Shown here piece after piece: positions 1,105-5,834 of a stretch of 5,834 bases of DNA. Every line of letters begins with the position of its first letter. Position 1 is the first letter of the stretch. The position numbers and the translations under genes were made by a program. Where the stretch lies: NCBI GenBank assembly GCA_024276815.1, contig JAJRWM010000191.1, positions 1 through 5,834 on the forward strand, written 5' to 3'. Origin of the DNA: a bacterium. GTDB lineage: Bacteria > JACRDZ01 > JAJRWM01. The notes beneath the pieces were generated by a model. It saw only the letters and a program-made list of their open reading frames with translations, did not search any database and was not told where the DNA came from.

Positions 1105-3495
1105 TCAGACACTAAGAATTTTTTTAATCAGGGTTACGGTCGCGACAGCATCCTTGGCGTAACCGGCGGCGCCGATTTCTTTGGCGTATTCCGGTGTGAC
1201 GACAGCCCCTCCGACGACAATCGGGATATTTAAACCGGCTTCTATCGCGCCTTTTATGGTTTCTTCCATCGAGGGCAGGGTCGTCGTCATCAAGGCGCTC
1301 AGGCCGATAATATTAACCTTCTTTTTAACGGCTGCTTTAAGGATCTCTTCTTTGGCGACGCTTTCCCCCAGGTCGATAACTTCAAAACCGTTGCTTTCCA
1401 ACAGGGAATGGCAGATATTTTTACCGATCGAATGAATATCATTTTCAACCGTGGCCAGCAACACCCGTCCCAGGCAGTGACGTTCCTTACCGGGCAAGTT
1501 CTCCTGTAATATCCCGGTACAGATAGTCATGGTACGCGCCGAGGAAACCAGTTGCGGCAGAAATAATTTTCCCGCTTCATAGTCCTTACCGATTTTACCA
1601 ATTGCCGGCACCAGGTATTTATTCAGGATTTCAAGAGGTTTTTCTTTTTTCAGGGCTTCATGAATCACCTGTACGCCGCTCTCATTGTCGCCCTGCCGGA
1701 TAATCCTCTCGATTCTGTCAGCCAGGCTCAGGGAGGAAACTTCCCGCGAGACTTCCCGCTCGGATCGGTTTGCCAGCCGATTGATATAGCGTTTGGCTTC
1801 TTCGTCCCGATTGGTCAGGACCTCGGCGGCGGCCAGGTAATCAAAGGCCAGTTTATGACGGGAATTAATGAAGACCGCGTCCAGACCATAGGAGAGCGCC
1901 ATAATCATATAGGAATCATTAAGCAGGCGGCGCCGGGGCAGTCCATGCGAGATATTGCCGATGCCCAGCATCGTGCTGACCCGGTATTTTTCTTTGACCA
2001 GTTGTGAGGCTTTCAGGGTTTCGATTGCCTGTTCGGGCTGAGTCGCGGCCGTAAACACCAGACAGTCGATTATCAGGTCCCTGGATTTCAGGCCGTAATT
2101 AGCGGCGTCCTCGATGATGGTTTCAGCTATTTTCAAACGATCCTCGATATTTTCGGGAATTTTCTTGCCCAGGGTCAAGCCGACAACCGCCGCCCCGTAT
2201 TTTTTCGCCAGCGGGAAAATGTCGCGGCGGGTATCCTCCTTGCCATTAACGGAATTGATGATAGCTTTGCCGCAATAGATCCGCAACGCCGCTTCAAGAG
2301 CCTTCGGATCAACCGAATCCAGCATCAACGGCGTATCGACCGCCGCCTGAACAGTTTCGACGGCCCGGCAAAGGGCGGCTGTTTCATTGATCCCGGCCAT
2401 CCCCATGTTAACATCCAGCACCCTGACGCCGGCTTCCGCCTGTTCAAGCGCTTCCTGACGGATTAAAGTGGTCTTTTTCCGTCTGATCTCATCTTGCAGG
2501 TCTGCCCGAGAAGTCGGGTTAATTCTCTCCCCGACGCTCAGGATTGGTTCTCCGGCTCCAAAGGTCAGAGTCCGGGTGCGGCTGCTGACCGTGCCGACCT
2601 GGGGGATATCACGTATTGCCGGCGCGAATTCTCTGGCCGCCCGGGAGATTTTCCTGATATGTTCCGGAGTTGAACCGCAGCAGGCGCCGATAATATTGGC
2701 TCCGGCGTCTATCTCCTGTTTAACGAAGGAGGCCATTTCATCAGGGGTCGCCGGGAAAACCGTTTTGCCATCGACCAGGTAGGGTATGCCGGCGTTGGGC
2801 TGAATGACAATGGGCGTCTCGCTGACCTCGCTCATCTGTTTAACCAGGCCGACAAGTTCTCGCGGTCCCATGCTGCAGTTAGCGCCGACTACTTCCGCGC
2901 CCATGCCGCCGAGCACGGTAATTACGGTTGCCGGATCGCTTCCGGTCAGGGTGCGTCCGGCGTTATCGAAGGTCACCTGGCAGATTACCGGCAGTTCGGT
3001 ATTTTCCTTGACGGCCAGCAGCGCCGCTCTCGCTTCCTGGAGATCGCTCATGGTGTCGATAATAATAAGGTCGGCCCCGCCTTTGACAAACGCGACGGCC
3101 TGTTCGGCGAAATACTCCACCACCTCTTCAAACTCCAGCTTGCCCAGGGGCTTGATCAACTCGCCCAGCGGCCCCATTGACGCGGCCACCAGCGCTTTAT
3201 CTTTGACCGCTTCCTTAACGATAGCGACGCCGACCCGGTTGAGTTCCTCGAAGCGGTCGCCCAGACCGTATTTTTTCAGTTTGTAACGGCTGCCTCCGAA
3301 GGTATTGGTGCCCACGATATCCGAACCGGCTTCCGCGTAGGCGGCGGCGATCTCTTTGATCCATTCGGGCTGATTGACGTTCACCAGTTCCGGGCATTCC
3401 CGTGACGACAGTCCTTTTTGCTGGAGCATGGTGCCCATCGCGCCGTCCAAAATCAATATTTCCTGCTCTAGTCTTTTAAGCCATGCTTCGGGCAT
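1105..3495 (-). CDS. metH: Cobalamin-dependent methionine synthase, three-module form without activation domain
   Basis: Transfers the methyl group of methyltetrahydrofolate to homocysteine through a corrinoid, in the cytoplasm. Three modules are visible in 796 residues. (1) Homocysteine-binding barrel, about 1-295: LDGAMGTMLQ (16-25), TNTFGGSRY (63-71) and zinc cysteines Cys207 (GANCSMGP) and Cys272/Cys273 (GACCGSTPEHI). (2) Pterin-binding barrel, about 315-575: SVGERINPTSR (320-330), LDVNMG (360-365), MLDSVDP (391-397), INSVNGKED (413-421). (3) B12 cap plus Rossmann domain, about 585-796: D686-x-H688-x-x-G691, then S733-x-L735 after 41 residues, then G762-G763 after 26, the classical base-off/His-on spacing, with His688 as the expected lower cobalt ligand. 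The roughly 330-residue AdoMet reactivation domain of E. coli MetH is absent; the gene ends cleanly with TGA. AAAGGA 5 bases before the ATG supports the start. It begins 47 bp after the isomerase gene. No SAM or cobalamin riboswitch is visible upstream. The family call is very secure. Confidence 0.97.
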   Translation of the reverse strand: MPEAWLKRLEQEILILDGAMGTMLQQKGLSSRECPELVNVNQPEWIKEIAAAYAEAGSDIVGTNTFGGSRYKLKKYGLGDRFEELNRVGVAIVKEAVKDKALVAASMGPLGELIKPLGKLEFEEVVEYFAEQAVAFVKGGADLIIIDTMSDLQEARAALLAVKENTELPVICQVTFDNAGRTLTGSDPATVITVLGGMGAEVVGANCSMGPRELVGLVKQMSEVSETPIVIQPNAGIPYLVDGKTVFPATPDEMASFVKQEIDAGANIIGACCGSTPEHIRKISRAAREFAPAIRDIPQVGTVSSRTRTLTFGAGEPILSVGERINPTSRADLQDEIRRKKTTLIRQEALEQAEAGVRVLDVNMGMAGINETAALCRAVETVQAAVDTPLMLDSVDPKALEAALRIYCGKAIINSVNGKEDTRRDIFPLAKKYGAAVVGLTLGKKIPENIEDRLKIAETIIEDAANYGLKSRDLIIDCLVFTAATQPEQAIETLKASQLVKEKYRVSTMLGIGNISHGLPRRRLLNDSYMIMALSYGLDAVFINSRHKLAFDYLAAAEVLTNRDEEAKRYINRLANRSEREVSREVSSLSLADRIERIIRQGDNESGVQVIHEALKKEKPLEILNKYLVPAIGKIGKDYEAGKLFLPQLVSSARTMTICTGILQENLPGKERHCLGRVLLATVENDIHSIGKNICHSLLESNGFEVIDLGESVAKEEILKAAVKKKVNIIGLSALMTTTLPSMEETIKGAIEAGLNIPIVVGGAVVTPEYAKEIGAAGYAKDAVATVTLIKKILSV

Positions 3496-3542: not shown

Positions 3543-4313
3543 TTACAGATATTCTTTAATTGCCGAGAAACTTTTGAGATATGTTTCCTGGTCGTGAGCT
3601 TCCAGGACATAGTGCTCAGGGTTGATATTCTTTTCTTTTAACAGGGTAAACAGGCGGTCAAAATCAAAATTACCCTCATGAATCGCCGAGTGTTCGTCCT
3701 CGTCGCCGTAGTTATCGTGCAGGTGCAGCTCCGTCAGGTATGGCCCTAATTCCTTTATCCAGACTTCCAGCGGATTGGCGCTGAAGATATTAAAATGGCC
3801 AACATCGAAGCAGAACCTGAAACACGGCGAGTCCAGCGCCTCCAAAAGCGTCTGTATCGGAACATGATCGTATTCGAACACGTTTTCGAAAGCGATTGTC
3901 AGTTCTTGTTCTTCGGCCCATTTTTGAACGTCCCGCCAAAGGGGCAGGCTTATTTCCAGCCAGAGGTCTTGAATTTCCTCATGCTTGAAAGGTTCATAAC
4001 CAATATGCGTGACGATATTGCGGGGATTAAGCGGCGGGCTGGCGGTCATTAACTGTTCAAAACGTCTCTTCGCCACTTCCCGGATCAGCGGATCGGGGCT
4101 GCCCGGCATAATATCCATAAAGGGGCCGTGAACCGTAACGGCCCGCTTTCCCTCTTTCAGCCGGGCGCCAACATCGCGGTAATCGTTTCCGCTGAAACTG
4201 TCCAGATCGTCGGCTGACAAATAAATCTCCAGGTTGTCAGCCCGCCGCCAGATAAAGCTGTCTTTTTCCTCCAGCAAATAATTAAAAGGCACGTGGGCGT
4301 AGACTTGTCTCAT
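3543..4313 (-). CDS. AP-endonuclease-2-fold TIM barrel, sugar phosphate isomerase/epimerase-like protein
   Basis: A 256-residue cytoplasmic protein with the layout of the xylose isomerase-like TIM barrel family (AP endonuclease family 2, COG1082 type). Candidate metal ligands occur strand by strand: H62 (TVHGP), H103 (VTHIG), E143 (AFENVF), D170 and H173 (CFDVGHFN), H197 (ELHLHDN), D206 and H208 (EDEH) and E238 (VLEAH). Known members bind divalent metals and isomerise or epimerise sugars, sugar acids or inositols; endonuclease IV shares the fold and ligand order. The protein lacks the typical endonuclease IV C-terminal signature, so isomerase-like is preferred, and the substrate cannot be read from sequence. 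Its ATG overlaps the stop of the Trm112-like gene as ATGA (4313-4310), and the Shine-Dalgarno is weak, so translation is probably coupled to the upstream gene. It ends with TAA 47 bp before metH. Confidence 0.85.
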
Positions 4314-4474
4314 AATTTCCGGGCTTCATCCACCAGCATCACCGGGATATCATCTTTTACCGAGTAGCCCAGTTTACAGGCGTGGCAGAGCAGTTCCTCA
4401 GGCTCCTCGACGTATTCCAGGTCGCCTTTGCACTGCGGGCAGGCCAGGATTTCCAGCAACTTCTTTTCAATCAT
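4310..4474 (-). CDS. Trm112/YcaR-like small zinc-ribbon protein
   Basis: A 54-residue protein beginning [17 protein letters not shown]. Two CxxC knuckles, C12-x-x-C15 (CPQC) and C30-x-x-C33 (CHAC), should bind one zinc, and the ending DDIPVML is the usual C-terminal part of the Trm112p-like/UPF0434 (YcaR) family, whose bacterial members are about 55-65 residues. In archaea and eukaryotes Trm112 is a stabilising partner of several methyltransferases; the bacterial role is little known. AAGGAG 6 bases upstream of the ATG at 4474 fixes the start. The stop TGA (4312-4310) overlaps the next ATG (4313) by four bases, which indicates translational coupling to the isomerase-like gene. The in-frame extension of the preceding wecA-like gene would overlap its first 8 bases. 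That it assists a methyltransferase, here or elsewhere, is inference only. Confidence 0.9.
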
Positions 4475-4541
4475 TTCTTTCTCCTTTCTTTTTACCTGCT
4501 GCTATCAGGATTAAAAACACCAAAAACATAATGACGGTATG
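4467..4541 (-). other. In-frame extension of the wecA-like gene beyond its UAG: membrane helix plus basic tail
   Basis: Directly after the UAG at 4544-4542 the wecA frame continues for 24 sense codons to a TGA at 4469-4467. It encodes [16 protein letters not shown] followed by KKKGERND. The hydrophobic stretch and the lysine cluster look like the second half of the last transmembrane helix plus the cytosolic tail of this enzyme family. With the extension the protein would be 349 residues, close to the usual 340-365 of WecA/TagO proteins. The ATG at 4529 inside it has no Shine-Dalgarno, so a separate 20-residue peptide gene is less likely. It ends 8 bases inside the Trm112-like gene, a typical coupled-gene overlap. 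Confidence 0.7.
4481..4486 (-). promoter_or_regulatory. Ribosome binding site of the Trm112-like gene
   Basis: AAGGAG on the minus strand, 6 bases before the ATG at 4474. It lies inside the in-frame extension behind the UAG of the wecA-like gene, where the same bases encode the basic KKKGER tail. Readthrough ribosomes would therefore pass directly over this site. Confidence 0.8.
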
Positions 4542-5516
4542 CTAGAGTATAACAGCCGCTTGAAACAGTGATACGTTGGCGAGCAAAAGCACGTTAAGCC
4601 CCACCGCCAGAGCCAGTAAATCTAAAGTCAGGACTGACTGCGCCGGGCTTAACCCGAGGCGGACCAACTGATGCGAGAGATGGTTTTTATCGGCCGTAAA
4701 AACACTGACCCCTTCAAGCTTTCTGATTACGACGACGGTTAAGGTGTCCAGGATCGGCACCGCCAGCACCAGGAGGGGGGTGATGACCGGCAGATAGTTT
4801 AACTTACTGGATTTCAGGTACACCCCGATCACCGAAAGCGAGGCCAGGCTGAACCCCAGGAACAGGCTGCCCCCGTCGCCCATAAAGATCGACGCCCCGG
4901 GGAAATTATACGGTAAAAAGCCCAAAGCCGAACCGCAGATACAGATTGACAGAACGGCCACCAGGTGCTGTTGTTGCTGCAAGGCCACCAGGAAGAAGAG
5001 CAGTGAGGCGATAACCGTAATCCCGGCGGAGAGTCCGTTCATATTATCGAGCAGGTTGAGCGAGTTGGTAATCCCCACCATCCAGATTAAGGTCAGTATA
5101 TAGCGGGCCGTGGGATTCCTGATAAACAGGCTGATCTCGATATCGGCCCGGAACAGGAGGAGGCCGGCGGCGATAATAGCTATGAGTTGCCCCAGAAGCT
5201 TTACCTTGCTGTCCAGCCCTTTGCAGTCGTCATAAATACCAACAGCGGCCATAATAACCGAACCCATAATTATGGCGAACAGCTTTTTCCCCTGCGCTAT
5301 TGAGGAGGGATAAAAGCTGACGTAGCCGGCAATCCCTATCATAAAGGAAACAAATATCGCCAGTCCGCCCAGGAGGGGAGTCGCCCGGACGTGTACTTTT
5401 CGTTCCGCCGGCTGATCCAGCACGTCAAAGCGTAAGGCAAGCCTTTTAATAAGCGGCGTAAGTACGGCGGTCAGGGCAAAGGTCACAGACAAAAGAACCA
5501 GGTAAACCTTGATCAC
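4542..5516 (-). CDS. wecA: WecA/TagO-like polyprenyl-phosphate N-acetylhexosamine-1-phosphate transferase, ending at an apparently premature UAG
   Basis: Integral membrane enzyme of the MraY/WecA superfamily (glycosyltransferase family 4 type). It would transfer a sugar-1-phosphate, probably GlcNAc-1-P, from a UDP-sugar to undecaprenyl phosphate, the first step of O-antigen, teichoic acid or other envelope glycan assembly. Of 324 residues most lie in about ten hydrophobic helices. Motifs: D96-D97 (GIYDDCKG), N151-x-x-N154-x-x-D157 (NSLNLLDNMNGLSAG), PYNFPGASIFMGDGGS (202-217, D214), and H279/H282 (DKNHLSHQLV) in the cytosolic loop. Position 160 is Asn where most members have Asp (DGLDG). The start is GTG at 5516, with TGGAG 7 bases upstream and an extended -10 promoter just ahead. 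The stop is TAG; the frame then continues through a further helix and KKK tail (4541-4467), so the 11th helix seems split. It could be a mutated gene, a recoded one, or a sequence error. MraY proper is less likely because the sequence ends and loop motifs match WecA/TagO-like proteins. Confidence 0.9.
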   Translation of the reverse strand: MIKVYLVLLSVTFALTAVLTPLIKRLALRFDVLDQPAERKVHVRATPLLGGLAIFVSFMIGIAGYVSFYPSSIAQGKKLFAIIMGSVIMAAVGIYDDCKGLDSKVKLLGQLIAIIAAGLLLFRADIEISLFIRNPTARYILTLIWMVGITNSLNLLDNMNGLSAGITVIASLLFFLVALQQQQHLVAVLSICICGSALGFLPYNFPGASIFMGDGGSLFLGFSLASLSVIGVYLKSSKLNYLPVITPLLVLAVPILDTLTVVVIRKLEGVSVFTADKNHLSHQLVRLGLSPAQSVLTLDLLALAVGLNVLLLANVSLFQAAVIL

Positions 5517-5554: not shown

Positions 5555-5584
5555 ATTATAGCAGTTTTTATGATTATTTGGCAC
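5555..5584 (-). promoter_or_regulatory. Extended -10 sigma-70-type promoter for the whole cluster
   Basis: Minus strand: a perfect TATAAT (5560-5555) preceded by TGC (5563-5561), giving the extended -10 TGCTATAAT. A partial -35, GTGCCA (5584-5579, 4 of 6 matches to TTGACA), lies 18 bases upstream. Transcription would start near 5548, leaving a leader of about 30 bases before the GTG at 5516. No other promoter of this quality is seen upstream of the later genes, so it probably drives all five. Confidence 0.7.
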
Positions 5585-5598
5585 AAACTTGCAGTTTG
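5584..5598. promoter_or_regulatory. Perfect 6-bp palindrome touching the -35 element, possible operator
   Basis: CAAACT (5584-5589), three-base centre TGC, AGTTTG (5593-5598). The two arms are exact inverted copies. Its edge coincides with the first base of the proposed -35, so a protein bound here could contact or block RNA polymerase. No known regulator consensus is recognised. Confidence 0.35.
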
Positions 5599-5724
5599 AG
5601 GAAATATGCCTTCGGCACTTTTAATACCGCCTCGTAAGAGTACTCGGCTGTGTATCAGGTAGTATCTAGCGCATTTAAGTTCTTACTATCAGGTTTCTCC
5701 AAGTTAAAGTTTTTTGGGGAAGGT

Positions 5725-5762
5725 TTGGAAACCTGCTTTTTTTCAAAAAAAGGGGTTTCCAA
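5725..5762. repeat. Long inverted repeat with T7/A7 tip
   Basis: TTGGAAACC (5725-5733) is an exact inverse of GGTTTCCAA (5754-5762). Inside, C plus seven T (5736-5743) faces seven A plus G (5745-5752) around a single C, with a small TG/G internal loop. Transcribed either way it would fold into a stem of about 17 base pairs with an AU-rich tip. Neither side has a clean U-tract after the stem, so it is not a textbook rho-independent terminator. It could end transcription of an unseen plus- or minus-strand gene, or be a dispersed intergenic palindrome. Confidence 0.6.
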
Positions 5763-5795
5763 GGTTCTTGTTTTGCCTTACATATGAACGTTAAA

Positions 5796-5824
5796 CGCTC
5801 TAGCGAAGCAACTCTTTGCGAGCG
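5796..5824. repeat. Bulged GC-rich hairpin
   Basis: CGCTC (5796-5800) pairs with GAGCG (5820-5824). After a two-base bulge (TA), GCGAAG (5803-5808) pairs with CTTTGC (5814-5819) with one G-U type pair, around the loop CAACT. No T-tract follows on either strand, so a terminator is not supported. It lies 33 bases from the larger inverted repeat and may belong to the same repeat unit. Confidence 0.4.
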
Positions 5825-5834
5825 GATTTGAAAG

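Follow-up and report, generated by a model that had tools for sequence, protein, structure and literature searches.

The interrupted WecA-like frame

The window, by which we mean the whole 5,834 bp stretch of DNA analysed here, is the whole of contig C125 in a metagenome-assembled draft genome (2.39 Mb, 246 contigs, 91% complete). It raises a simple question: does the UAG codon that breaks into the last membrane helix of a WecA-like enzyme belong to the organism, as a recoded codon, a mutation or an ordinary stop, or does it belong only to the assembled sequence? Our essential contention is that it is very probably a sequencing or assembly artefact and not a sign of an unusual genetic code. 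The features concerned are these:

4542..5516, minus strand: WecA/TagO-like (Glycos_transf_4) open reading frame up to the UAG, 324 aa; PF00953 match and homologs 41-47% identical
4542..4544, minus strand: in-frame TAG, most probably an erroneous base; the codon in homolog L008 is TCG (Ser), and the change would belong to a genome-wide error class
4467..4541, minus strand: in-frame continuation of 24 codons, covering the last helix and a basic tail, closed by TGA at 4469-4467
4310..4474, minus strand: Trm112-like gene (Pfam Trm112p), its first 8 nt shared with the extended frame

The WecA-like frame opens with a GTG codon (5516-5514, minus strand) and matches Pfam family PF00953 (E=1.5e-34; 119.8 bits against a cut-off of 27); with this domain and a helix-rich sequence its product is a predicted transferase, and the extended frame would amount to 349 residues with the UAG counted. 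The geometry described by the initial annotation was reproduced in full, with the TAG at 4544-4542, 24 open codons after it and a TGA 8 nt inside the Trm112-like gene, whose ATG lies at 4474-4472. Elsewhere in the window, positions 1105-3495 encode a MetH-like protein (796 aa) in which Pfam found homocysteine S-methyltransferase, pterin-binding and B12-binding domains but no other, so that it apparently does without the MetH reactivation domain.

The segment upstream of the WecA-like gene (5584-5834) belongs to an interspersed repeat: about 48 other places in the genome match it, at 70-100% identity and mostly over 50-140 bp. This may partly explain why so many contigs are short. Well over a dozen contigs carry a second repeat, about 105-150 bp long and 88-99% identical (copies at L062:6941-7062, L051:2290-2395, L073:15904-16025, L120:3769-3890 and others).

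The tail and its homologs

The best WecA-like homologs come from other phyla and reach 47% identity. Aligned with the window, close homologs carry their frame past the UAG site without a stop and end 21-45 residues beyond it, most of them near the TGA of the extended frame. At the UAG site close homologs have Leu, Ile, Val or Ser, two more remote ones have Ala or Cys, and most homologs have Leu, Ile or Val; the site sits within a membrane helix and Glu occurs there in none of the homologs aligned. No gap is needed to align the tail with the final helix of close homologs. When the tail is shuffled, 0.085% of the shuffled versions reach the BLOSUM score that the real one obtains against 10 homologs. 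Homolog L008 reads LSHTVCIFAVIALL where the window reads L*HTVIMFLVFLILI; the HTV directly after the site is common to both, and the Ser codon of L008 is TCG. Comparison with the homologs revealed no decay in the tail beyond the UAG. This homology means that the window DNA clearly descends from a full-length gene, and the initial annotation was right that the UAG breaks its last helix. Some distant family members are 322-350 aa long, and some members (L011, L025, L027, L031) stop before the UAG site, so the enzyme may tolerate losing that helix.

In-frame stops elsewhere in the genome

The WecA-like gene is far from alone. A same-frame neighbour check found UvrB, PilB, PlsX, AsnB and DAHP synthase broken by in-frame TAG or TAA, and likewise glutamine synthetase, trigger factor, UbiA, YgiQ and others. 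Measured against E. coli proteins, nine stops fall at Glu positions (in UvrB, ClpX, CysS, GapA, FabH, PlsX, GlmU, LolD and NuoG), while others fall at positions that are not Glu in E. coli (two in PyrH, and in RplA, GlnA, PilB and IlvB); solved homologs of PyrH and L1 have variable residues at the stop positions. Anchored stops with a matching residue are all at Glu and none at Tyr or Ser, and other well-conserved in-frame stops also resemble Glu sites. A hexamer scan of 1.11 Mb gave further candidate internal stops, part of the list being opposite-strand noise, and in it in-frame UAA was as frequent as in-frame UAG; a scan by codon frequency was too weak for the purpose. Control loci from other genomes contained no in-frame stop in 3,470 codons, and in three genomes of the same phylum CysS and ClpX are free of internal stops.

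The E. coli-anchored rate is about one false stop per 2,000-4,600 codons. On that footing some 0.4-0.9 false stops are expected in the window's approximately 1,790 coding codons, and the presence of one there is ordinary. Two further genes are interrupted by other combinations: a KefB-like gene (L202:970) by TGA, and an SbcC-like gene (L077:7341 and 7818) by TGA and TAG. Their TGA interruptions go beyond what a code reading UAR (UAA or UAG) as Glu would explain.

Disagreements between overlapping contigs

Many contig ends have exactly 141 identical bases in common, which suggests a de Bruijn assembler run at k = 141. In four pairs the overlap is longer (343-381 bp) and holds 2-3 mismatches, and these disagreements carry the weight of our argument: all 11 mismatches in the 1,459 bp of long overlap are G/T or C/A. 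On the coding strand they divide into eight G>T and three C>A, the latter indicating that the process reaches beyond glutamate codons. In fabH, the very site of the in-frame TAA in contig C24 reads GAA in contig C18, and in a frame that we take to encode shikimate kinase one contig reads SSGGGVV and its sister SSGGVVV. Within a pair the T or A is found now in one contig and now in the other, according to place, and both must therefore contain substitutions, with a load of about 0.4% of bases in each. Three short overlaps (112-141 bp) have one mismatch each, of another class. Between real strains one would expect mostly transitions, and stops in fabH, gapA, clpX and pyrH would be lethal to a cell. 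The assembly holds no second contig over the UAG site itself (4542-4544).

A proposed origin of the UAG

In proposing how the UAG arose, we need to account for in-frame stops in many genes and for contig disagreements of a single class. We suggest that the assembly consensus carries G:C-to-T:A substitutions at roughly 0.4% of positions, a pattern that resembles the one left by oxidised guanine, and that the errors presumably survived wherever too few reads were available to correct them. Substitutions of this kind would turn GAA and GAG into TAA and TAG, GGA into TGA, and TCG into TAG. Of the codons that lie one G:C-to-T:A change from a stop, GAA and GAG are the commonest, and UAA and UAG would therefore turn up chiefly where the family has glutamate. 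At the window site a single C-to-A step would convert TCG (Ser) into TAG, and we take TCG as the likeliest true codon since L008 has TCG there. Of the other possible sources, GAG to TAG belongs to the same substitution class but requires a Glu that is present in no homolog, and TTG (Leu) to TAG is a T-to-A change and so of another class. The gene product would then be a normal WecA-like protein, about 349 residues long and complete through its last helix.

The tRNA genes and the anchored stops fit this proposal less comfortably. There is no mismatch of the G:C-to-T:A type in the stems of the 33 tRNAs found, and this, like the missing Tyr and Ser cases among the anchored stops, is mildly unexpected; by a rough estimate from small numbers, each would be a 1-2% event if errors were uniform. 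Comparison with E. coli shows an excess of Gly-to-Cys missense differences (22 vs 4), although some of the Cys may be natural, and no clear excess of Asp-to-Tyr. The part of the rRNA alignment that was inspected yielded nothing telling.

Recoding machinery in the draft genome

A search for the machinery of amber decoding, which the initial annotation had raised through pyrrolysine or a suppressor tRNA, came back empty: the PylS profile tops out at 18.5 bits in this genome against a cut-off of 178, and none of the 33 tRNAs has a CUA or UUA anticodon, those for Glu having UUC only. The gene for release factor prfA is present and uninterrupted. Nor is UAG rare here, as had been surmised from the few stops visible in the window; TAG closes 124 of 513 long open reading frames genome-wide (24%). 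We also considered whether longer frames lie behind TAG than behind other stops, and rejected this: frames of at least 80 codons follow TAG in 28 of 142 cases and TAA in 46 of 269, which are similar, and only TGA differs. Among others, the set lacks tRNAs for Trp, Tyr and Asn, in keeping with an incomplete assembly. One ARAGORN prediction, a tRNA-Arg at L158:32-112, has badly mismatched stems, resembles a piece of the repeat in the window (AAAGTTTTTTGGGGAAGGTTTGGAAACC...) and is a false tRNA.

Alternative explanations

The foremost alternative, which we regard as unlikely, is that the UAG is a real nonsense mutation, leaving a 324-residue WecA-like protein without its last helix. Such a loss might be tolerated thanks to an uninterrupted WecA-like paralog on contig C158 (L002, L189; 342-codon frame, 39% identity), and some family members likewise end before the site; against this, equivalent stops occur in genes that cells cannot lose, and the tail has not decayed. 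Stops in indispensable genes make the stops of this draft genome unreliable in general.

Less probable still, at a very small chance, is a dual role for UAA and UAG in this bacterium, whose phylum is poorly sampled, with both read as glutamate at a small fraction of codons and both kept in use as stops. We took this idea seriously for the Glu-only anchored stops and the clean tRNAs, and the absence of a clear Asp-to-Tyr excess and the Glu-like character of the other well-conserved stop sites speak for it too. What led us to drop it was the GAA that the sister contig shows at the fabH site, together with the 11 long-overlap mismatches, all of them G/T or C/A and including missense changes and C-to-A steps. 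The idea is further opposed by the tRNA set without UUA or CUA, the presence of prfA and the share of long frames closed by TAG, by the membrane-helix site of the window where no homolog has Glu, and by the CysS and ClpX genes of same-phylum relatives, which lack internal stops.

Amber decoding by pyrrolysine or a suppressor tRNA is highly improbable: the open frame behind the UAG would suit it, and with a genome 91% complete a suppressor tRNA could have been missed, but the PylS score, the 33 tRNAs without CUA and the equal frequency of in-frame UAA all tell against it. That a short WecA variant naturally ends at the UAG, with a frame left open behind it by chance, we consider just as improbable, for although some distant family members are comparably short, the tail matches the terminal helix in every close homolog, has HTV as in L008 and is rarely matched by shuffling. 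Of the three options that the initial annotation had offered, then, recoding or readthrough is without support, nonsense mutation is reduced to a minor rival, and base error, the reading we prefer, is strongly supported by the other in-frame stops and the contig disagreements.

Relation to known systems

By itself the window's UAG means little. The wider point is that G:C-to-T:A errors in a consensus imitate a code in which UAR means Glu, closely enough to deceive a reader or a screen that infers genetic codes. A quick check for such errors, for which no reads are needed, is to compare contig ends that overlap. Within the wording tried, a literature search returned no paper on a G:C-to-T:A artefact in assembled metagenomes.

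As far as the enzyme is concerned, the WecA/TagO-like transferases (PF00953) resemble the window's protein in their domain, their helix-rich sequence and their last helix, which lies past the UAG here, and the sole difference is the apparent stop inside that helix. Some protists read UAA and UAG as glutamate and yet still use them as stops. The nuclear code of Blastocrithidia nonstop (PMC12153298) has in-frame UAA and UAG at Glu with UAA also terminating, and gives the same look as this genome; unlike that case, a sister contig here reads GAA at such a site, none of the 33 tRNAs found matches, and changes also occur in other codons. A screen of over 250,000 genomes reported that all bacterial code changes known until then reassign UGA, and warned that in-frame stops in pseudogenes can yield false code inferences (PMC8629427). 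This genome would set a similar trap of another origin, in which G:C-to-T:A errors turn GAR into UAR. The closest parallel is with C>A/G>T sequencing artefacts attributed to 8-oxo-dG (PMC6337315), which fall in the same substitution class as all 11 contig disagreements; however, those were low-frequency variants in reads, while the changes described here stand in an assembly consensus, where we infer the chemistry from the class of substitution.
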